From NCBI RefSeq assembly GCF_030517065.1, contig NZ_CP103950.1, positions 620,001-684,000 of the forward strand: a DNA stretch of 64,000 nt, written 5' to 3'. This document shows positions 3,403 to 54,816 of this stretch, one piece after another; position 1 is the stretch's first letter, and each line of letters begins with the position of its first letter. The position numbers were made by a program, and so were the translations under genes. Origin of the DNA: Riemerella columbina. Its GTDB lineage: Bacteria > Bacteroidota > Bacteroidia > Flavobacteriales > Weeksellaceae. The notes below the pieces were generated by a model that made no database searches, had not been told where the DNA came from, and worked only from the letters and a program-made list of their open reading frames with translations.

Positions 3403-3790
3403 AGTGATTATGATAAACTTTAAAATATTTTTTTTTCGCAAAAAAGCTATAGTAAATGAGCGGTAGAATGTAAATAAAACTAACAACTAACCATAAAGGC
3501 GATACCAACCCTAAGAAAAGCAATACACATAATAAAATGCTGATACCTCCGCCCAACAGATAATATAAATCTGGTATTGCGCTAACAATTTTTATGGTAG
3601 AATGATCATTAAAAGGTATCGTTTCTTTATTTGTTATCCATTGATTACTGATTTCTATATCAATAGTTTTTATTTCTTGATGATTGATCTCCAACGATTT
3701 AGACTCATTGGGTTTCAAACTAAAAGTTAAATCATTTAGTTTGACATCAATTTTTGATAATGGAAAAATACTTCGTTTGATTAGAATCAT
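3350..3790 (-). CDS. Hypothetical small membrane protein
   Basis: A 146-residue protein not recognised as a named family. The first 65 residues are polar and beta-like. Two hydrophobic segments follow (about residues 73-92 and 97-116), then a basic His/Arg-rich tail, so a two-pass membrane protein with an N-terminal soluble domain is likely. Its last 53 bp overlap the start of meaB in another frame, which suggests translational coupling. The DNA is more AT-rich than meaB and mfd on either side. It could be a recent insertion or a lineage-specific gene. Confidence 0.55.
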   Translation of the reverse strand: MILIKRSIFPLSKIDVKLNDLTFSLKPNESKSLEINHQEIKTIDIEISNQWITNKETIPFNDHSTIKIVSAIPDLYYLLGGGISILLCVLLFLGLVSPLWLVVSFIYILPLIYYSFFAKKKYFKVYHNHYAHHFHRGFSTRDFKRR

Positions 3791-27481: not shown

Positions 27482-28471
27482 CTACAGATTGAAATTCACA
27501 TAGAGAGAATGTCGGTTTCGGATGCGAACATAACCATCAGACAGCGCAGATTTGAGCGGAAGTTGGCTTTCTACCCCAATATTAAAGCGTTTAAATGCCA
27601 CCTCGGCGCCTATTTTACTTAAAACGATGTAGCCACCCGTATGCGGAATTTTCTCGCCGACTTGTACATTTGGGAGGTATTTTTCTGTTGCAATACCCAA
27701 CCTCGGTGATAGGGTAAAATTTTGAAAATTATGAATGTAATAACCTGTTAATGAGGTGTTCCACTGGTCGCCGAAGCGGTAGTATTTTTTATTCTGGGTT
27801 TTAAAGGTGTAGTCTGTAGAGAATGCCAGCGCCCACTGTTCGCGGAGGAAAGTATAGTTGAGAATAGCGGAATAATCCCAGCTGCCTGTTCCCCTTTGGA
27901 AACTCGGATTGTACGACTGCGCCGAGGCTTCATCAAATTTAGCGATCGGGATTTTAACGCCTGCGCCAATATGAAGGCGGTGGACTTGTGCGCTATCCAA
28001 TGCAATTTTATAAATAACAGAAGTGGACAAATCTCCAATGCCAGAAAGCGTCTGTTGAGGCGTGGTTTCTCGCTGATGAAAGTGATAAGGCAGGCTGGCG
28101 TAGAGGTCTATTTTTGAAGCGACAGGAATTCTGCTCCAGAGCTGCACGGTATTATAATGCTCAGGGATGTTGTAATCCGCATCTAAAACATTGGCTTTAG
28201 AGGCGTAAGTTTGGTGCAAATACTTGATACCGATAAACTGCGGATTTAGAATGCTCTCAAACCCAGAAGAAGCGCTACCCACGGAGCAACCACAAGCATC
28301 ACAATCATCATCTAAGAGAAGAGAAGGTGCCGTAAATGCTGGGCGCCCGCTGAGGCTATCGCGGTCTTTGGCAAAAAATAGGGTAGGCATTAAAATTAAT
28401 AGCCATAGGGTGAAAAGACGGTTCATTGGGGATAAATGTTGAAATTGAGATTTTGTTTTCATAAGTTTCAT
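27482..28471 (-). CDS. Outer-membrane barrel protein of the copper/diheme operon
   Basis: A 329-residue protein, last gene of a four-gene operon. After a signal sequence, the mature N-terminus has a Cys cluster, DDCDACGCS (Cys 57, 60 and 62), suited to bind copper. The rest is aromatic-ended beta strands (YASLPYHFHQ, DYSAILNYTFL, SLTGYYIHNF) as in an outer-membrane barrel. I start at the ATG complementary to 28469-28471, one base after the mbnH-like stop; a second candidate (MNRLFTLWLL at 28426) gives a cleaner signal peptide. Family members beside mbnP/mbnH genes are often labelled transporter. The role in copper passage is inferred. Confidence 0.75.
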   Translation of the reverse strand: MKLMKTKSQFQHLSPMNRLFTLWLLILMPTLFFAKDRDSLSGRPAFTAPSLLLDDDCDACGCSVGSASSGFESILNPQFIGIKYLHQTYASKANVLDADYNIPEHYNTVQLWSRIPVASKIDLYASLPYHFHQRETTPQQTLSGIGDLSTSVIYKIALDSAQVHRLHIGAGVKIPIAKFDEASAQSYNPSFQRGTGSWDYSAILNYTFLREQWALAFSTDYTFKTQNKKYYRFGDQWNTSLTGYYIHNFQNFTLSPRLGIATEKYLPNVQVGEKIPHTGGYIVLSKIGAEVAFKRFNIGVESQLPLKSALSDGYVRIRNRHSLYVNFNL

Positions 28472-28472
28472 A

Positions 28473-29516
28473 TTATTCTGAAAAATTAGGGTTGCTAATA
28501 AATTGAGGGTCACTAAGGGTATTTAAAAACTTGATAAGTTGCTGTTTCTCAGCTTCGGAAAGGCGGATGCCCACACGCCCAGGGTATTTTCTGAACTCGG
28601 GGTCTAAGTTGGGTTGATCCTCCATACCGCTATCGTAGAAATCCAACAAGGCTTTTAGGGTGTAGAACCTGCCATCGTGCGTATAAGGCGCAGTGTAGGC
28701 TACATTTCTCAAACTCGGCACTCGGAATTTTAGAAAATCTTCCGCTTTGCCTGTTACCCTTTTTCTGCCTTCATCTTGGGTTATTGGGTTGTAGGGAATG
28801 CCTGTATTTCGGAAACTTTCATCGGTAAAGAGCGCTGTGGTGTGACAGCTGGCACATTTATTCTGAAAAACCGCGTAACCTTGGGCTTCCTCTGGGGTGA
28901 ATTCGCTTTCGTGGCGTATCACACGGTCGTATTTGCTGTTGGCAGAAATTAAAGTCGCCATAAACTGCGTAATAGACTTTAAAATGCGCTCTGCCGTGAT
29001 GTTTTTATCACCATAAACAATGGAAAACAACCGCTGATATTCGGTATCATCTTTTATTTTGATGATGATATTTTCTATGGTTTCATCCATTTCCTCGTGG
29101 GTAGAAATGGGGATGATGGGCTGCATATCTAACTGTGTTACAGAGCCGTCCCACATATAGCGTTTTAGGAAAATCATATTTTGTATGGGCGGTGCATTTC
29201 TGATGCCTTCGCGACCTTCCACGCCGTGGCTTACGCTGTGTCCGTGGTGGGTAAAGGCATTCTCTTGAATATGGCAAAAAGCACATGCCACGGCATTGTC
29301 TTTGGCTAAGCGTCCATCGTAGAAGAGTTTTTTGCCTAATGCCACGCCATATTGGGTGGGCGGGTTGTCTTTTAATGCATATTGCACCGCAGGAAAATGG
29401 GAAGGCAATGCCAGATGATAAGGCTGATCTATAGGGAGTTGAGCGGTGTTATCATCATTTCGGCACGCCCAAAGTATCCCAAAAACCATAAGAATGGCAA
29501 GATAATAAGATTTCAT
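28473..29516 (-). CDS. Diheme cytochrome c peroxidase family lipoprotein, MbnH-like
   Basis: A 347-residue protein of the CcpA/MauG family. Lipobox LWAC (Cys18). Two c-type heme sites: CAFCH (78-82) and CASCH (221-225). The length and the partner gene favour MbnH over a classical peroxidase. In the known MbnH-MbnP pair the diheme enzyme uses peroxide to convert a Trp of MbnP to kynurenine, which then helps bind Cu(I). That chemistry is established for the family and inferred here. The stop is one base before the next start, so the genes are coupled. Confidence 0.85.
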   Translation of the reverse strand: MKSYYLAILMVFGILWACRNDDNTAQLPIDQPYHLALPSHFPAVQYALKDNPPTQYGVALGKKLFYDGRLAKDNAVACAFCHIQENAFTHHGHSVSHGVEGREGIRNAPPIQNMIFLKRYMWDGSVTQLDMQPIIPISTHEEMDETIENIIIKIKDDTEYQRLFSIVYGDKNITAERILKSITQFMATLISANSKYDRVIRHESEFTPEEAQGYAVFQNKCASCHTTALFTDESFRNTGIPYNPITQDEGRKRVTGKAEDFLKFRVPSLRNVAYTAPYTHDGRFYTLKALLDFYDSGMEDQPNLDPEFRKYPGRVGIRLSEAEKQQLIKFLNTLSDPQFISNPNFSE

Positions 29517-29590: not shown

Positions 29591-30403
29591 TTAATCGTTA
29601 TGTACATGGTCTACATGGAACATCTCCGCAAGGTTTTCTGAAACCTGTTGCACAATGGTTTTGCTTGGGTGCATACCCTCGTGGTTGTCTGGGCTGAGGG
29701 TAATGCTGTGTTTGCCGCTCAAAGCCTGGTAAACATCTGCCATAATATGGATTTTTGGCGCTATTTCTTGTCGAACTTTTGCGGTTTGTGGCAAATCTAA
29801 CTGAACGATTTTATAGACATTCGGAGTTTTAGAAACCTCGGGATTACCGATGTTTCCGATATGGATTTTAAAATGTTGGCTTAAATCTTGACCGTAAACG
29901 CCTTCTAAATTCACGAATTTATAACCTGAAGCCCAAGACCAGCCCATTCCTGCTTTTTTGGCTTTGTCCCAAAATGTCGCTTGCTTATTTTCACCTAAAA
30001 CAAAGGCTTCAGGCGCAATGCCCAACCCAAAGCGCACAGCTTTATAATCTCCAGCTGGAATGTCTTTTAAAACAAAATTATGGGTGGTGCTGGCTTCGCT
30101 TTGGTCTATAATGTAGGCGCCTTGGTCAGGGTCTAAATGGTGGTATTTGAATTCGGAACCATCAGATTTGATGAGGGTAACATCGCTGATGATGTATTTT
30201 AAAGTTTGAAATTTGAATGTCTGTCCAGCTTTGGAAGTATAAGTTCCGCTGAGCCCAGCCATCGCTTGTTGATTATAGATGTTTTCAAATTTAAGAGTTA
30301 GGTTGTTGTGTTCGTTAGATTTGATTTCTGGTTCGCTATCACGGTTACAAGATATCACGAATAAACTGGCTATGGCAACCCACAGCATCATATATTTTTT
30401 CAT
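29591..30403 (-). CDS. MbnP-like copper-binding lipoprotein
   Basis: A 270-residue protein with lipobox VISC (Cys19). The family hallmark MGWSWASGYKFVNLEG is present at 143-158, with Trp145 and Trp147; one Trp of this motif is the expected site of oxidation by the MbnH partner. His-rich patches (YHHLDPDQGAY and the final HVDHVHND) could also bind metal. It lies second in the operon, 74 bp before the mbnH-like gene. No methanobactin precursor or mbnB/mbnC gene is nearby. Confidence 0.85.
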   Translation of the reverse strand: MKKYMMLWVAIASLFVISCNRDSEPEIKSNEHNNLTLKFENIYNQQAMAGLSGTYTSKAGQTFKFQTLKYIISDVTLIKSDGSEFKYHHLDPDQGAYIIDQSEASTTHNFVLKDIPAGDYKAVRFGLGIAPEAFVLGENKQATFWDKAKKAGMGWSWASGYKFVNLEGVYGQDLSQHFKIHIGNIGNPEVSKTPNVYKIVQLDLPQTAKVRQEIAPKIHIMADVYQALSGKHSITLSPDNHEGMHPSKTIVQQVSENLAEMFHVDHVHND

Positions 30404-30487: not shown

Positions 30488-30871
30488 CTAAGAAAAAACA
30501 AATGAAACCGTAGGCGGACGCAGAGTTTCGCGGATAAAGGTTTGTAATTTTAACTTTTCGGAATATGCCGTTTTAGGGAGCGGCGTATAGAAAATTCGTA
30601 ATATTGGTGGGGTATATTCTGCCGAGATGGGCGGAAATACGATAGGCTCATAAAGGCTAAAACCTTGCACAGAAGTAGGTTCAGTGGTGTTTTTGAGTTC
30701 CTTTTCTAATTGACACTTACCGTGGCAGTTGAGCTGTGGGCGTGCTTTGTTGATGCAATAATTTTGCTCTATAAAATCTTGGTTAAGTTTGAAATGAAGG
30801 ATGATGATACTCTGCTGCAAAGCGAGCAAAAGTACCAAAAGAGACATCCCTATACCAAACCATTTTTTCAT
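30488..30871 (-). CDS. Small membrane protein with CHGKC motif, first gene of the copper operon
   Basis: A 127-residue protein with one N-terminal membrane helix (about 6-26). A short extracytoplasmic domain follows with Cys39 and the motif CHGKC (49-53), then a Pro-rich tail. The Cys/His cluster is well suited to bind Cu(I). I start at the ATG complementary to 30869-30871. The open frame extends 16 codons further, but that part covers the promoter and operator. The next gene (mbnP-like) follows after 84 bp. No named function is known to me. Confidence 0.75.
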   Translation of the reverse strand: MKKWFGIGMSLLVLLLALQQSIIILHFKLNQDFIEQNYCINKARPQLNCHGKCQLEKELKNTTEPTSVQGFSLYEPIVFPPISAEYTPPILRIFYTPLPKTAYSEKLKLQTFIRETLRPPTVSFVFS

Positions 30872-30875
30872 ATCC

Positions 30876-30883
30876 CAAAGGTA
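30876..30883 (-). promoter_or_regulatory. -7 box of the copper operon
   Basis: The minus strand reads TACCTTTG, a perfect TAnnTTTG. The start would be at about 30871, the A of the ATG, so the first gene may be leaderless. There is no -33 TTTG; the dyad at 30905-30920 lies upstream instead, which suggests an activator-dependent promoter. Confidence 0.65.
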
Positions 30884-30904: not shown

Positions 30905-30920
30905 TATGATTCTAATCATA
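30905..30920. promoter_or_regulatory. Crp/Fnr-type operator of the copper operon
   Basis: TATGA-TTCTAA-TCATA is a perfect 16-bp dyad with the TGA-N6-TCA core shared by Crp/Fnr-family sites. The centre (30912.5) is 36.5 bp from the last base of the -7 box and about 41.5 bp upstream of the predicted start, the class II activator position. The same half-sites occur in the nos region at 54342-54357. Confidence 0.7.
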
Positions 30921-47919: not shown

Positions 47920-48687
47920 CTATAAATTTTTCTTGTTGAACTGAATGAGGCTGTATAAAAATGGTGCCAATGCCCACAGGCTCAAAATAAGTAAAGAAAT
48001 GCCCATTCCACCGCCGCTACCAAAGATTTGTTTGAAAATGGCACCCGTGTAGCCCAGCATAGCCGAAACATCTAATTGCAATAACACAAAAATGCGAGAT
48101 AACCCTATGGGGTTCAGGGCTGCCAAGGTCGCCATAATGCCTTCAATAGGGTAGTCGGCAAATTGGAACATCAAGACCAATAAAAAGCCATCATAAAGGA
48201 GGCCAAAGAATAGCCATAAGAAAATAGCGAGTCCTACACCTTTCGCTCGATCTTTGGTGGAAATAGCAGCCAACATCGCTAATGAAGTGAAAATCACCGA
48301 AAGAAAACAGCCACTAAGCACCAAAGATAAACCTGTACTCAGCGAGGCATACAGGAAAATAGGCAACGCACAACCGATCAGAAACGCCATAACAAGGGCA
48401 GAAGAAAGCCCCACAAAAATTCCAATCCAAATTCTACTCCTTGGCACAGGCTGGCTGAGGAGCAGTTCTATAAACTGGCTACTGTTATAAACATAAATGG
48501 TGGAAAACATTAAACTGACCAAAGGCACCACCAAGAGCATCACATTGAGTAGGCTCAGTGTCGCTTTGGAAGGGTTAGTCTCTAAACCGAGGACCACCCA
48601 AGAGATTAAAAATAAGACCAAAGCATAGGCGATGATCACTTTGTTTTTTAGAATATCTAAGACGATGAATTTCGCGGTTTTATGCAT
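47920..48687 (-). CDS. nosY: Nitrous oxide reductase maturation ABC permease NosY
   Basis: A 255-residue polytopic protein with about six membrane helices, of the ABC-2 type. It forms the NosDFY complex with NosF and NosD, which helps deliver copper/sulfide for the CuZ site of NosZ. It overlaps nosF by 8 bp. Identification rests on the operon context together with ABC-2 permease topology. Confidence 0.9.
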   Translation of the reverse strand: MHKTAKFIVLDILKNKVIIAYALVLFLISWVVLGLETNPSKATLSLLNVMLLVVPLVSLMFSTIYVYNSSQFIELLLSQPVPRSRIWIGIFVGLSSALVMAFLIGCALPIFLYASLSTGLSLVLSGCFLSVIFTSLAMLAAISTKDRAKGVGLAIFLWLFFGLLYDGFLLVLMFQFADYPIEGIMATLAALNPIGLSRIFVLLQLDVSAMLGYTGAIFKQIFGSGGGMGISLLILSLWALAPFLYSLIQFNKKNL

Positions 48688-49396
48688 ACTTCATTTTTTT
48701 TAAGATGGTGGTAATAGCTTCGGAGATGGTGGCTTGCCCAGTTTCTACTTTCAGTTGTTCCACGGACTGGTGCACCATCACTTGCCCTTCATTCATAAAT
48801 ACAATTTGGGTAATGATGTCCTCTAACTCACTGAGGAGGTGCGAGGTAATGATGATCAACTTCCCGTTATTTTTTTCTTTGATGATTTTTTGTTTCAGAA
48901 TTTCTGCCGCCAGAGGGTCTAAGCCTGCCGTAGGTTCATCTAAAATCACAATATTGGGGTTGAACATAAACGCCAGCACGGCGCTCACTTTTTGTGTGGT
49001 ACCGCCAGAGAGCGTGCTCATTTTCTTGTCAAAAAGTTGTTCTAGCTCATAGGCATCCATCAGTTCGGTATCCAGTTGCGCTTTGGGCACATTCCGTATA
49101 GACTGGATCATTTGTATGGTCTGCCCAATGCTCATATTTTCAGGATAGCGCCCAATCTGAGGCATATACCCAATTTGCTCACGGTAGTGATAGTCCTCCA
49201 TCACGCTTTTTCCATTAACGGAGATGCTGCCTTGCTCCACCACATTAAGCCCCAGAATAGACTTGATGAGCGTGGTTTTGCCACAACCATTAGGACCGAT
49301 GAGCGCTATGGATTCTCCCTTTTTAAAATCAAGGTTGATGTCCTTTAAGGCAGTAAAACGATGAAACTTTTTGGTTAAATTTTGAATATGAATCAT
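48680..49396 (-). CDS. nosF: NosF ABC ATPase
   Basis: A 238-residue ATPase. Walker A GPNGCGKTT (34-42), a Q-loop, the signature LSGGTTQKV and Walker B NIVILDEPTAGLDP are all intact. It powers NosDFY. It lies between nosD and nosY and overlaps nosY by 8 bp. Confidence 0.93.
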   Translation of the reverse strand: MIHIQNLTKKFHRFTALKDINLDFKKGESIALIGPNGCGKTTLIKSILGLNVVEQGSISVNGKSVMEDYHYREQIGYMPQIGRYPENMSIGQTIQMIQSIRNVPKAQLDTELMDAYELEQLFDKKMSTLSGGTTQKVSAVLAFMFNPNIVILDEPTAGLDPLAAEILKQKIIKEKNNGKLIIITSHLLSELEDIITQIVFMNEGQVMVHQSVEQLKVETGQATISEAITTILKKMKYA

Positions 49397-49418: not shown

Positions 49419-50669
49419 TTAAGCGCTGTTTTTCATTTTTAGGGTATTTTTTCGCATCATTGGCGCTTCATCAACGAAGTTTTCTGGCGTTAAGCTGGGG
49501 ATGAATTTTTCAATTTTGTTGAGAAGCTCCACGAAAAAAGTACGATAGAGCAACATCACCGATGGATTTTTTTCCGTTAGTACCGCATACCAACTGAGCG
49601 GATGATAAGGCACATCGCCAATGCGGTTTTTGTCCAAATCATAACCCTCATATTTGTCCCAATAGTTGTGTTTAAAGGTGTTCATCACCATCGTGCCATT
49701 GGTGCCAACATCAAAGGTGTTGTTGATGAAATTATTGGTAAAAATCCTGTTTTCCATACAGTTGGCATTAATTTTTAAGCCCCAACCATTGTTTTCAAAT
49801 GCATTATTTTGAAGGTCTATTTTGGTGGCGCCATCCATCAGCACAGCGGTGGTATTGCTTCGGAAAGTGTTGTGTTTGATTTTACTGAACGAAATATCTT
49901 TGAGGAGGAGCCCATAGGCGGCATCGCCCCAATTATCGCTGAAGAGGTTGTACGCCATTCCCACATTTTTGCTGTACATGACCGCCACGCCTGCGTTATT
50001 ATTGCGAAATACATTGCGAACATACACATTGTTATCAGAGAACATAAAATGCAGTCCGTAGCGTAGATTTTTGTAAGATACATTATGATAAATGTAAGAA
50101 TTGATGACTTTTTCTAAATAAATGCCATCTTTGTAGCCAGAGACATAGTTGTCTTTAATCCAAAGCTCAGCGCTTACCCACGCGTGGATGCCATCGCCGC
50201 TGCGTTCTTGGGAGGTAGCTCGGGTAGAGGTAAAGCGGTTGTGCTGGATAAGGCAACGGTAGCCGCGCTGGATGTAGATACCGAAATAATTGTTCTCAAA
50301 AATATTATCTACAATGCTGGAATAATGGCTATCGTAGAGCCTAATCGCACCGATGTTTTCTACCTCGTCTTCTCCAGAATTGATGATTTTAAACCCTTTT
50401 AAATGAATCCGATTGGCTCTAAAAGATAGAATTTCGTACTTCATTTCGCCATCTAATATAGGGCGGTTTTCGCCGATGAGCGTTAAGGGTTTATCAATGC
50501 TGATGTTGCCCTCTTTATAAACCCCTTGGGTCACCCAAATGGTATCTCCACTATGGGCTTGGGCAATGGCTTCCTTGATGCTGGTATAAGCCTCGCCAGC
50601 ACCTACACGCCGAATTTTGGCATCAAAAAAAGTAACGCAGAGCAAACACCAAACGAGCAAATATTTCAT
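49419..50669 (-). CDS. nosD: NosD periplasmic beta-helix copper-assembly protein
   Basis: A 416-residue protein with a Sec signal peptide (about 1-17). It forms a right-handed parallel beta-helix, seen as repeated Asn-Asn/Phe-Asn rungs such as NIFENNYFGIYIQ and NVFRNNNAGVAV. NosD captures copper from NosL and works with NosFY on CuZ assembly. The start is the ATG complementary to 50667-50669. Confidence 0.92.
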   Translation of the reverse strand: MKYLLVWCLLCVTFFDAKIRRVGAGEAYTSIKEAIAQAHSGDTIWVTQGVYKEGNISIDKPLTLIGENRPILDGEMKYEILSFRANRIHLKGFKIINSGEDEVENIGAIRLYDSHYSSIVDNIFENNYFGIYIQRGYRCLIQHNRFTSTRATSQERSGDGIHAWVSAELWIKDNYVSGYKDGIYLEKVINSYIYHNVSYKNLRYGLHFMFSDNNVYVRNVFRNNNAGVAVMYSKNVGMAYNLFSDNWGDAAYGLLLKDISFSKIKHNTFRSNTTAVLMDGATKIDLQNNAFENNGWGLKINANCMENRIFTNNFINNTFDVGTNGTMVMNTFKHNYWDKYEGYDLDKNRIGDVPYHPLSWYAVLTEKNPSVMLLYRTFFVELLNKIEKFIPSLTPENFVDEAPMMRKNTLKMKNSA

Positions 50670-50684: not shown

Positions 50685-51098
50685 TTAAGGGAGAAGTTGA
50701 GCATTAAGTTTTTGGGCGTATTCTTCGGCTTTTTGAGAGTCTGAGAAAGCGGCAGTGTTCCCATTCATTGGGCTTTTAATCTCGCCACCAGAGATGAGCG
50801 TTGCCGTTTCCAGCGGAATCAGTTTTTTATCTAAAAAGTCAGAAACATAGAGGTGGGCTTTCTCGGCGTGTTCAGGGTGCTCTTTCTCATAAGCCTCCAT
50901 ACAACTTAAATCGTCAAATTTATAAACGCGCCCTTTGTCTGTTACCAATTCCGTAGCGAAGCTGTCTTCTGTAATCGTCATTTTACAGTGGTCGCAATCA
51001 TCTTTTCCAAATTGGATAGGCTGTGGACCTTCTTGGGTGCAAGCGGTTAAACTTAAAGCGAATAGAGAGGCTATGGATAGGATTGTGTGTCGTTTCAT
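50685..51098 (-). CDS. nosL: NosL copper chaperone lipoprotein
   Basis: A 137-residue lipoprotein with lipobox LTAC (Cys20). The Cu(I)-binding motif CDHCKM (35-40) is present, with a second conserved segment KFDDLSCMEAY. NosL binds Cu(I) in the periplasm and passes it to NosD. It is 15 bp upstream of nosD. Confidence 0.93.
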   Translation of the reverse strand: MKRHTILSIASLFALSLTACTQEGPQPIQFGKDDCDHCKMTITEDSFATELVTDKGRVYKFDDLSCMEAYEKEHPEHAEKAHLYVSDFLDKKLIPLETATLISGGEIKSPMNGNTAAFSDSQKAEEYAQKLNAQLLP

Positions 51099-51758: not shown

Positions 51759-53762
51759 TTAGTTAGAACTTCCTGTTTTTACAGGGCCAGTTGCATTGTC
51801 ATTTTTGTTGTTTAAGCTGTAGATGAGCGGCGTGTTGCTACCCGCAGGGGATACTCGCACATAGCCTTGCATCTCTTGGTGTAGTGCAGAACAGAAGTCG
51901 GTGCAGTACATTGGATACATTCCAGCTTTTTTAGGCACCCATTTGAGCGTGCAGGTTTCACCTGGCATAATCAATAGCTCGGCATTTTCAGCCCCTTTGA
52001 TAGCGAAACCGTGTGGCACATCCCAGTCTTGTTCTAAGTTGGTAATGTGGAAGTAAACTTCATCACCTACGCGGATACCTTCAATATTATCTGGTGCAAA
52101 GTGAGAACGGATAGAAGTCGCATAAACATGAACTTTGTTGCCTTCTCTCACCACTTTACTTTCAGCCTCGCCTTTGGTAGCGTAAGGGTTTTTATTGTCA
52201 GCAATGTTGTAGAATTTCAACTGATTTTTGCTAATCAATTCTCCTGGTGCTGCCTGTGCGTAGTGCGGCTCTCCAAAGGTTGGGAAGTCTAAAAGTAACT
52301 TCATCTTATCACCGCTGATGTCATAGAGCTGCGCTGATTGGGTGAGCTCTGGACCTGTTGGTAAATATCTATCCTTAGTAATTTTGTTATAAGCCACTAA
52401 GTATTTGCCATAAGGTTTTGCAGTGTCCCCGCCAGGGATCATCAAGTGTCCTACAGAGTAGAAAGTAGGCTGTCTGTCTAAAACTTTACACTCTTTGATG
52501 TTCCATTTTACCACTTCGGAAGACACGAACATAGAGGTGTAAGCATTACCTTTACCATCAAACTCGGTGTGTAATGGACCTAAACCTGGTTTCTGAACTT
52601 CGCCGTGTAGTGCAGATTCATATTTAATAACAGGCACGCCATCATACTCGCCAGAGAAATCTTTATTGGCAATGGCTTTTTGGATTTTATCAAAGCTAAA
52701 CACTGGGATGAGTGCTGCCAATTTTCCAGAACCGATGATGTATTCTCCCGTTGGGTCTACATCACAACCGTGTGGAGATTTCGGGCAAGGGATCATATAG
52801 CAAAGGTCCTTCAATTCTTTGGCAGAAAGTACGGTTACCTCTTGCTCCATAGTAGAAGTGGCAGTTTGTGTAGATTCATTGAATTTATTGTGTGCAAACT
52901 GTGTTTTCACTTTTCTACCTTTGCCCGCTTTTAGGTACTCCTCGGCTTTTTTCCAATTGACTGCCATAATGAAGTCTTTATCATTCTGAGAGGCGTTTAC
53001 TTCTAATAAAGTGTTGGCTTGCTCAGAGTTATAGCAAGAGAAGAAGAACCAGCCGTGTGATTTTCCTTTTCCAGCGTGGGATAAGTCAAAGTTAACCCCT
53101 GGCGCTTCTATTTGGAATGAAAGGTCCATATCTCCAGATTCAGGATTAACCCCAATGAAGGAAATCACGCCTTTAAAGTTTTGTTTGAAAGAGTTGATTG
53201 GCACATCGCCATTAGCATCATCCGTTGGCACCGCAAAACGCGTTCCCGCTACCACATACTCTGTATTTTCTGTAATAAATGGTGATGAGTGGTTACCCGC
53301 AGAGTTCGGAAGTTCCAAAATTTCTACCGTGCGGAAGGTTTTTAAGTCTATTCTTGCCACACGCGGCGTGTTGTTGGCGTTAGCAAAAATCCATCTGCCA
53401 TCTACCTCGCCTTTGGTTTGGGAGAGTTCTAAGTGGTGCTGGTCATCCCAAGGGATAAAACCGTGCGAAGTTTGGAGCATTGGCTTGGTTTCCTCGCTGT
53501 AGCCATAACCATTTTCTGGATTTTGGGAGAAAATAGGAACAACTTTGAGCAATCTTCCAGAAGGCAAGCCATAAACGCCCATTTGTCCGTTAAAACCACC
53601 ACTCACGAAGTTATAAAACTCGTCATACTTACCGGGAGCCACATAGACTTTCTCGGCAGCATCGCCACTTACGGCGCTTTCGGTTCCTTTTGGCTTACAG
53701 CCTGTAAGCGCTAAGGAAGAGGCTAAAACAGCCACACCTAAATGTTTATATATATTTTTCAT
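51759..53762 (-). CDS. nosZ: Nitrous oxide reductase, clade II (Sec-type), as a lipoprotein
   Basis: A 667-residue copper enzyme that reduces N2O to N2. The N-terminus carries a Sec lipoprotein signal with lipobox ALTGC (Cys22) in place of the Tat signal of clade I. The seven CuZ His are visible: DDQHH (109, 110), GNHSS, SPHGCD, LHTEF, VGHLM and EPHYA. The CuA site is CTDFCSALHQEM in the C-terminal cupredoxin domain. The chain continues about 25 residues past CuA. It follows the cytochrome c gene by 25 bp. No nosR or nosX is present, as usual for clade II. Confidence 0.96.
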   Translation of the reverse strand: MKNIYKHLGVAVLASSLALTGCKPKGTESAVSGDAAEKVYVAPGKYDEFYNFVSGGFNGQMGVYGLPSGRLLKVVPIFSQNPENGYGYSEETKPMLQTSHGFIPWDDQHHLELSQTKGEVDGRWIFANANNTPRVARIDLKTFRTVEILELPNSAGNHSSPFITENTEYVVAGTRFAVPTDDANGDVPINSFKQNFKGVISFIGVNPESGDMDLSFQIEAPGVNFDLSHAGKGKSHGWFFFSCYNSEQANTLLEVNASQNDKDFIMAVNWKKAEEYLKAGKGRKVKTQFAHNKFNESTQTATSTMEQEVTVLSAKELKDLCYMIPCPKSPHGCDVDPTGEYIIGSGKLAALIPVFSFDKIQKAIANKDFSGEYDGVPVIKYESALHGEVQKPGLGPLHTEFDGKGNAYTSMFVSSEVVKWNIKECKVLDRQPTFYSVGHLMIPGGDTAKPYGKYLVAYNKITKDRYLPTGPELTQSAQLYDISGDKMKLLLDFPTFGEPHYAQAAPGELISKNQLKFYNIADNKNPYATKGEAESKVVREGNKVHVYATSIRSHFAPDNIEGIRVGDEVYFHITNLEQDWDVPHGFAIKGAENAELLIMPGETCTLKWVPKKAGMYPMYCTDFCSALHQEMQGYVRVSPAGSNTPLIYSLNNKNDNATGPVKTGSSN

Positions 53763-53787: not shown

Positions 53788-54288
53788 TTATTTAACACCA
53801 TCAATTTCTCTCATATACTCCAAAATGCTGCGGGCTTCTTTCTCATCTAAGCCTTGGTTTGGCATTCTTACCAAACAGATTTCCAATTGTTTTTGTACCT
53901 CTGGATCTTGGTCAATCATCGGATCTGGATTGGTGATGAAGTTCATAATCCAATACGGTGTATGTCTTTCAGTAACGCCTTTCCAGCCTGGTCCTACTAA
54001 CTTTTCGGTAGTGGTTTTGTGGCAAGAGGCGCATTTAACATCAGAGATGCTTTTGCCCTCAGCTGCCATATTAGCGTTAAAAGTACTAACATCTACATTA
54101 GAGGCGTCATATTTTCCTAAACCTCTTTTAGGGTCGTAGGCGCCATCTGTAGTGGCGGTATTTTCAGTGCTCTCGGTGGCTTCTGTTGTGGTTTCAGAAG
54201 AAGTGGTGTCTTCTGTTTTTTTATCACCACCGCAAGAGATCATCATTGCTGTGAAAGCAAAAATTGCGAATAATTTTAAGTGTTTCAT
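53788..54288 (-). CDS. Cytochrome c lipoprotein, first gene of the nos operon
   Basis: A 166-residue protein. Lipobox MISC (Cys19), then a Thr/Glu/Ser-rich linker (about 20-60) and one class I cytochrome c domain with CASCH (86-90) and candidate axial Met142 (RMPNQGL). It lies directly upstream of nosZ in the same operon, so it is the most likely electron donor. The acidic flexible linker would let the heme domain reach NosZ. Confidence 0.9.
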   Translation of the reverse strand: MKHLKLFAIFAFTAMMISCGGDKKTEDTTSSETTTEATESTENTATTDGAYDPKRGLGKYDASNVDVSTFNANMAAEGKSISDVKCASCHKTTTEKLVGPGWKGVTERHTPYWIMNFITNPDPMIDQDPEVQKQLEICLVRMPNQGLDEKEARSILEYMREIDGVK

Positions 54289-54311
54289 TTTTGTTCAATT
54301 TTATTTTGATA

Positions 54312-54319
54312 CAAAATTA
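54312..54319 (-). promoter_or_regulatory. -7 box of the nos operon
   Basis: The minus strand reads TAATTTTG, a full match to TAnnTTTG. The start is expected at about 54307, with a leader of about 19 nt. There is no -33 TTTG at 19 bp; the Crp/Fnr-type dyad lies there instead. Confidence 0.65.
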
Positions 54320-54338: not shown

Positions 54339-54360
54339 GTTTATGACTGCAATCATAAAC
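54339..54360. promoter_or_regulatory. Crp/Fnr-type operator between divergent cytochrome c/nos promoters
   Basis: GTTTATGA-CTGCAA-TCATAAAC is a perfect 8-bp dyad with the TGA-N6-TCA core. Its centre (54349.5) is 36.5 bp from the end of the plus-strand -7 box and 37.5 bp from that of the minus-strand box. Both promoters would thus be in the class II position near -41.5. The inner half-sites TATGA/TCATA equal those of the copper operon site at 30905-30920. Confidence 0.75.
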
Positions 54361-54414: not shown

Positions 54415-54816
54415 ATGAAAAAAATAATGCTTGCAAGCTGTTTAGGGTTGAGCCTAATCGCTTGTTCCGAGAAAAAAGGAGAACCTGCACAAGAGGCAGA
54501 AACCAATGTGATGTTAGAAGAGCCCAAAGCCACCGCTCAGAATGATGAGGCGGCAAGTGGTAAAGATGAGGGACTTAAACTGATAGAAGGCGCCGACTGT
54601 TTGGGTTGCCATAAGACAGACACGAAACTTGTGGGACCGTCTTATGAAGAGGTTGCCAATAAATACACTGAGGCAGATGTGGATATGTTGGCAGACAAAA
54701 TCATCAATGGTGGACAAGGCAACTGGGGCGAGGTGCCAATGAGTCCACACGCTGGATTGAGCAAAGAGAACGCAAAGAAAATGGTGGAATACATCTTATC
54801 TTTGAAGAAAAAGTAG
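54415..54816 (+). CDS. Cytochrome c lipoprotein divergent from the nos operon
   Basis: A 133-residue protein. Lipobox LIAC (Cys17), then an acidic linker and one c551-like heme domain with CLGCH (62-66) and axial Met109 (VPMSPH). The Met motif and length resemble small cytochrome c551/c552 electron carriers. Divergent position and a shared operator tie it to N2O respiration. It could be a second donor to NosZ or a link to other anaerobic reductases. Confidence 0.9.
   Translation: MKKIMLASCLGLSLIACSEKKGEPAQEAETNVMLEEPKATAQNDEAASGKDEGLKLIEGADCLGCHKTDTKLVGPSYEEVANKYTEADVDMLADKIINGGQGNWGEVPMSPHAGLSKENAKKMVEYILSLKKK

Follow-up and report, generated by a model that had tools for sequence, protein, structure and literature searches.

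A putative Crp/Fnr-type operator shared by the nitrous oxide reductase operon and an MbnP/MbnH-like operon in Riemerella

The dyad TATGA-N6-TCATA stands, at the distance from the promoter expected of a class II activator site, before both the clade II nos operon and an MbnP/MbnH-like operon in a Riemerella genome (family Weeksellaceae). It is probable, from the sequence comparisons given below, that a Crp/Fnr protein, Crp2, works through this operator on nos family-wide and, in Riemerella, on the MbnP/MbnH-like operon too. The dyad would be the operator of a Crp/Fnr-family activator which, centred at about -41.5 (class II), would take the place of the -33 promoter element and drive the clade II nos operon across the Weeksellaceae. 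Within the Riemerella lineage the MbnP/MbnH-like operon would have acquired the same operator, and N2O respiration and periplasmic copper handling would thereby be switched on together. The activator would be Crp2, a Crp/Fnr protein without the Fe-S cysteine set, whose gene is usually found beside nos in relatives; the inducing signal would most likely be anoxia with NO or N2O. Such an arrangement suggests that a single regulator may make NosZ and ready its metal supply at the same time.

The stretch of DNA analyzed (the window, 64 kb) covers positions 620001–684000 of the single-contig, 2.04-Mb genome. It contains just two perfect copies of TATGA-N6-TCATA, TATGATTCTAATCATA on the copper-operon side and TATGACTGCAATCATA on the nos side, both belonging to minus-strand promoters. 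Shuffled windows contain a mean of 0.08 perfect dyads, and none of 100 shuffles reached two. The two sites and their -7 boxes are as follows.

30905–30920, minus strand: copper-operon dyad TATGA-N6-TCATA, centre 30912.5, predicted position -41.5
30876–30883, minus strand: copper-operon -7 box, TACCTTTG
54342–54357, minus strand: nos-operon dyad, centre 54349.5, predicted position -42.5
54312–54319, minus strand: nos -7 box, TAATTTTG

A first-pass annotation had described the same half-sites at these two places, and both matches are indeed exact. It had also given them an identical spacing of 36.5 bp, which needs a small correction: the distance from the dyad centre to the last G of the box is 36.5 bp for the copper operon and 37.5 bp for nos, 1 bp apart and both within the range of 36.5–38.5 bp found at nos promoters (see below). 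Its further remark that the promoters lack a -33 TTTG agrees with what was seen here, since neither has one at the usual distance; the nos promoter has one TTTG, located between the dyad and the box, just 14 bp ahead of the latter. A near-site at 623776 (window position 3776) was considered as a third promoter of the window and not adopted; an ORF begins within it. Operators at the class II activator position are centred near -41.5. A study of Flavobacterium psychrophilum places the TAnnTTTG box at -12 to -5 (PMC9723704), so a spacing of 36.5 bp corresponds to -41.5, and spacings of 36.5–38.5 bp from the end of the -7 box would therefore place the dyad centres at -41.5 to -43.5 relative to the predicted start sites, the class II position. 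For nos the predicted start site is window position 54307, minus strand.

The presumed copper operon has four genes.

30488–30871, minus strand: small membrane-type protein of 127 aa with an NCHGKC motif, first gene (from the sequence)
29591–30403, minus strand: MbnP-family protein (Pfam MbnP, 140 bits, cut-off 27)
28473–29516, minus strand: MbnH/MauG-like di-haem protein (Pfam CCP_MauG, 174 bits)
27482–28513, minus strand: final gene, encoding a 343-aa protein with a CDACGC motif (from the sequence)

Against the corresponding NCBIfam models, the MbnP-family protein scores 53 bits (cut-off 140) and the MbnH/MauG-like protein 213 bits (cut-off 363), both below threshold. Neither the 127-aa protein nor the 343-aa protein has a match in Pfam or NCBIfam; a gene like the latter is found in the same order in R. 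columbina. A phmmer search of PDB sequences (E 0.01) gave no relative for MbnP. The adjacency of an MbnP-family gene to a MauG-like di-haem gene recalls the MbnP/MbnH pair as described in a 2013 paper (PMC3621798), with the difference that both proteins here match at the Pfam level and score below the NCBIfam cut-offs. A copper role is likely, judging from this family resemblance; according to that paper, no data at the time tied close MbnP homologues to copper (PMC3621798). MbnP-like proteins occur in 179 of 296 genomes of the family. A separate contig scan with MbnP gave one locus only, in R. columbina, the nearest named relative found, with 69% protein identity.

The nos operon begins on the other side of the window's second dyad from a divergent cytochrome gene.

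54415–54816, plus strand: divergent c-type cytochrome gene, across the nos dyad from the operon (15 of 20 fetched nos regions have a relative next to nos)
53788–54288, minus strand: c-type cytochrome, first gene of the nos operon (Pfam Cytochrom_C)
51759–53762, minus strand: NosZ, Sec-dependent, clade II type (TIGR04246, 938 bits, cut-off 625)
50685–51098, minus strand: NosL (Pfam NosL)
49419–50669, minus strand: NosD (Pfam NosD)
48680–49396: ORF in the NosF position, placed by position alone
47920–48687, minus strand: NosY-type permease (Pfam ABC2_membrane_2)

The TIGR04246 score assigns NosZ to clade II (Sec-type). NosZ is present in 64 of the 296 family genomes, and the regions upstream of nos were read in 57 of these, with a script that preferred dyads having a box at 35–39 bp. 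A perfect dyad with TAnnTTTG 36.5–38.5 bp from its centre was found in 53, and two more have one mismatch, for a total of 55 of 57. The spacing in these 55 is 37.5 bp in 45, 36.5 bp in nine, and 38.5 bp in one. Of the two exceptions, G101 has a perfect dyad without a box, and G006 has NosZ with neither dyad nor box. Across the 55 sites TGA and TCA are invariant and the central two bases free, and the base counts give TATGA....TCATA. By this comparison the dyad is a family-wide putative nos element across the Weeksellaceae.

In the genome as a whole, TATGA-N6-TCATA has seven perfect copies, compared to one for a reversed-pattern control. This search, proposed by the first-pass annotation, places the motif above its control and also shows that it is not confined to the two sites of the window; the statement that there is no third perfect copy holds within the window and fails outside it. 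An extended form, TATGAYTNNARTCATA, with an inner YT-N2-AR core, has five copies in the genome and none in the reversed control, and a second-order Markov simulation of 12 Mb produced no extended dyads and 2.6 short-form dyads per genome. The five extended sites are listed by genome position.

520732: faces no ORF of usual size; possible small RNA
650905: faces the copper operon
674342: faces the nos operon
1077810: broken outer-membrane-type gene on the minus side, ZIP transporter on the plus side
1360735: faces a TonB-dependent receptor

Four of the five (520732, 650905, 674342, and 1077810) have TAnnTTTG on the minus strand 35.5–37.5 bp from the dyad centre, for which a simple binomial gives a chance of about 6e-7. 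At the TonB-receptor site the box is 64.5 bp away, which by the F. psychrophilum numbering would put the dyad near -69.5. The remaining two short-form sites, at 1496888 and 1528043, lack both the YT-N2-AR core and a box at 35–39 bp (one has a box at 46.5 bp); they are likely chance occurrences, and the seven were not all taken as functional. Lists with mismatches were also set aside as descriptions of a regulon, the one-mismatch list (131 vs. 59 in the control) as too noisy and the two-mismatch extended list (49 vs. 41) as near background. With five extended sites this species stands out from the other 63 NosZ genomes, which have between none and three each, 75 in all (Poisson tail 0.0075); the 64 together have 80, against a control sum of 5. 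As part of the explanation preferred overall, the regulon has probably grown to five strong sites in this species. The minus-strand gene facing 1077810 has a signal-peptide-like start and no ORF of at least 60 aa (L034:3800–4757), and looks broken.

Conservation of the copper-operon dyad is much narrower. Upstream regions were read for the best 30 loci from the 179 genomes with an MbnP match; three have the dyad with the box, and none of the other 27 does. The three are this genome (perfect, spacing 36.5 bp), R. columbina G004 (perfect, 38.5 bp), and G005 (one mismatch, 37.5 bp), or three of six Riemerella genomes; two of the five having both nos and copper systems are without it. Between R. 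columbina (TATGACTAGAGTCATA) and this genome (TATGATTAGAATCATA) the arms are kept and inner positions have changed. In G001–G003 the aligned place has a TATGATTTTTATC-C-ATA-like stretch, longer than the dyad by one base and perhaps a relic of it. Among the best 30 of 179 MbnP loci, the copper-operon dyad is thus a putative operator belonging to part of Riemerella. If the box lies at -12 to -5 (PMC9723704), the predicted start site of the copper operon coincides with the A of the ATG (30871), and the mRNA would therefore be leaderless. The presumed first codon follows the TAnnTTTG box by 4–5 bases in all six Riemerella genomes; in F. psychrophilum, 5.5% of the mRNAs examined were leaderless (PMC9723704).

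The regulator of the dyad is most likely Crp2, on evidence from its sequence, its distribution, and its gene neighborhood. By HTH model this genome has two Crp/Fnr genes; a third, weaker relative scores 22.9 bits against the Crp2 profile. Crp2 (193 aa, genome position 1,183,696, plus strand, about 510 kb from nos here) belongs to the Crp/Fnr family by PF00027 (56.7 bits) and PF13545 (32.3 bits), each score exceeding its cut-off. Nine Crp2 sequences, with one to three cysteines each, share no set of FNR-type 4Fe-4S cysteines. Neither do they have the CRP pattern: the position of R180 is T, I, or V in all nine, and the operator is TATGA instead of TGTGA-N6-TCACA. Their common recognition helix, GLxxETxIR, keeps the equivalents of CRP E181 and R185 and has lost R180; under the CRP contact rule (PMC1274295), a helix that has E181 but not R180 suits TATGA better than TGTGA.

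In genus g26, 31 of 36 genomes have Crp2 (E <= 1e-15), and they coincide exactly with the NosZ-bearing ones (naive probability of this match 2.7e-6, ignoring kinship); the five without it also lack NosZ and have no extended dyads. By coordinate comparison, Crp2 is 4–6.5 kb from nosZ in 30 of the 31, G169 being the exception. Seven of the 31 have no extended dyads, their nos sites being short-form only. Among the 20 fetched nos regions, 11 include Crp2 with a gene for a 408-aa neighbour, two have the neighbour alone at the edge of the stretch, two have, directly upstream, a Crp gene that is more distantly related, and five have neither Crp2 nor the neighbour. The 408-aa protein (L038:3781–5007) is membrane-type, with QEAHSHFAFY and LHFQYNGFF motifs invariant in the alignment, and has no Pfam or NCBIfam match.

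The six Riemerella genomes differ in this gene. It is intact in G000, G004, and G005, frameshifted in G002 and G003 (apparently R. anatipestifer-like), and absent in G001, which is also without NosZ and the extended dyad. The copper-operon dyad tracks intact Crp2, being present in three of three genomes with it and none of three without (naive p = 0.05), and this split of three vs. three may represent one clade event. In G002 and G003 the crp2 frameshift falls just ahead of the DNA-recognition helix (L113:6465–7056 and the matching place in L114), and the nearby nos dyad is perfect. That the nos dyad is kept despite a frameshifted crp2 may mean that it has another reader or that the regulator is dispensable.

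The motif also occurs apart from nos. In genus g20, which appears to be Chryseobacterium, the dyad is common though the family-genome search gave no match for NosZ. Twenty of these loci were read, over about 3 kb or less each; 12 have a box at 36.5–37.5 bp, and 14 include an ORF matching the Crp2 profile, with up to 159 bits vs. 48 bits for the Crp1 of the Riemerella genome studied here. This suggests that there are paralogs of Crp2 type whose linked sites may serve self-regulation, and supports Crp2-type proteins as probable readers of the dyad, which would be a class motif and not private to N2O or copper. In G043 the dyad, with a box at 37.5 bp, precedes a pair of genes that is apparently NorC/NorB-like, judging from a haem motif, Pfam cytochrome c, and gene order. 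The proposal of a joint nos/copper regulon in the first-pass annotation is therefore only partly borne out. In its favor are the Crp/Fnr-type class II site shared by both operons, the 55 of 57 nos promoters, two further Riemerella copper operons, and a candidate regulator that tracks nosZ; a motif specific to N2O and copper is contradicted by the g20 dyads, which accompany other Crp2-like genes without NosZ, and by the two of five two-system Riemerella without a copper-operon dyad.

The other Crp/Fnr protein, Crp1 (237 aa, beside the ccoI/cbb3 cluster), might read the site instead within a general response to low oxygen, in which case nos and the copper operon would be co-regulated via oxygen and not N-oxides. 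Its gene is 2.7 kb from one dyad and adjoins ORFs read as ccoI and ccoN, its recognition helix (TESAIR) is compatible and also lacks an R180 equivalent, and in G002 and G003 the nos dyad is kept despite a frameshift in Crp2. However, G001 has Crp1 (82% identical) without Crp2, NosZ, or an extended dyad, no dyad was seen by eye in the crp1–ccoI intergenic sequence, and both the placing of Crp2 and its neighbour near nos in 11 of 20 regions and the much better match of the g20 ORFs to the Crp2 profile than Crp1 itself achieves point away from it; we consider a role for Crp1 unlikely.

That the dyad before the copper operon is a functionless match, due to chance or left over as a relic, is very unlikely. 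About 2.6 perfect short-form copies are expected in the genome, and 27 of the best 30 MbnP loci (of 179) have no dyad, but this one is of the rarer extended form, has a spacing among the 36.5–38.5 bp of nos promoters, and persists in R. columbina, where protein identity is 69%, with its arms intact and inner bases changed; with core, spacing, and conservation all against it, this explanation was rejected. Least probable of all is a metal-responsive regulator (Fur/Zur- or CsoR-type) that would bind the dyad and have both operons answer to copper itself. Several targets do look metal-related (NosZ, the MbnP/MbnH-like operon, the TonB receptor, and the ZIP gene beside one site), but a repressor operator would be unusual at the class II activator position that the site occupies, the same site and box precede the NorC/NorB-like pair of G043, and Crp2 co-occurs with nosZ in g26. 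Control by Crp2 being preferred, a broader version of it can be offered tentatively, as something we would currently doubt more than believe: an N-oxide-sensing Crp/Fnr regulator of the Weeksellaceae with its own operator, TATGA-N6-TCATA, would in this Riemerella master a coupled regulon of clade II nos, the leaderless MbnP/MbnH-like operon, the TonB-dependent receptor, and an FnrS-like small RNA, with regulator and copper-operon site having decayed together in the presumed R. anatipestifer clade.

Among known systems, the NO-responsive denitrification regulators DNR, NnrR, and NNR (PMC1274295) resemble the proposed one as Crp/Fnr activators of nos genes with a palindromic box, and the Crp2 profile finds DNR among PDB sequences (59 bits). 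E. coli CRP, however, matches it better (94 bits), and the DNR operator, TTGAT-N4-ATCAA (PMC1274295), is not what is found here, the base counts over 55 sites giving TATGA-N6-TCATA. The likeness to DNR/NnrR-type nos and nor control is at the level of sites only, in 55 of 57 nos promoters and one NorC/NorB-like pair. Nss of Wolinella succinogenes is likewise a case of Crp/Fnr control of clade II nos by N-oxides including N2O (PMC11539149, citing Kern and Simon 2016); it differs in its consensus, TTGA-N6-TCAA, and in belonging to another phylum, and the accessible part of that paper mentions no copper operon. A search of titles and abstract starts in the open-access literature turned up nothing on how nos is regulated in Riemerella or its family, which is weak evidence of absence, and nos regulation in clade II N2O reducers of the Bacteroidota seems little described. 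A precise putative operator, its position, and a candidate regulator can now be given for clade II nos of this group, along with what would be an instance of a likely metal-supply operon being drawn into a respiratory regulon. NosZ is a copper enzyme that removes a greenhouse gas, and a coupling of its expression to copper handling would therefore bear on when these bacteria are N2O sinks.

Behind the 520732 dyad, which has a TAAATTTG box at 36.5 bp, lies a short stretch at C1:520574–520703 on the minus strand (L033:6575–6704), where the predicted start site is C1:520698. It folds far better than shuffled versions (z -3.9), ends in a hairpin and U run, and includes a 24-codon ORF, making it a candidate regulated small RNA or micro-ORF. 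The crp1 regions of five relatives gave no convincing match to it (nor was an rpsB match found there), and its two Rfam matches are both far below gathering scores. FnrS is a small RNA under the control of an Fnr-type regulator, and the resemblance lies in a predicted short transcript that follows a Crp/Fnr-type promoter and ends in a terminator; here, in contrast, the transcript is a prediction, has the 24-codon ORF inside, and has no relative in the five regions compared.

For the TonB-dependent receptor, no dyad occurs within 320 bp upstream in any of the 29 other loci read. In relatives from four Riemerella and one other genus, a TTAG...CTAA-like inverted repeat can be seen by eye near the presumed -7 box, and the Crp-type dyad further upstream here vs. 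this repeat in relatives suggests a change of regulator. The nos regions themselves may contain an additional target. In five of the 20 fetched, a second perfect dyad precedes a gene for a small lipoprotein, toward the far end of nos, and in a sixth an imperfect dyad does so; the one such gene scanned matches Pfam Fasciclin.
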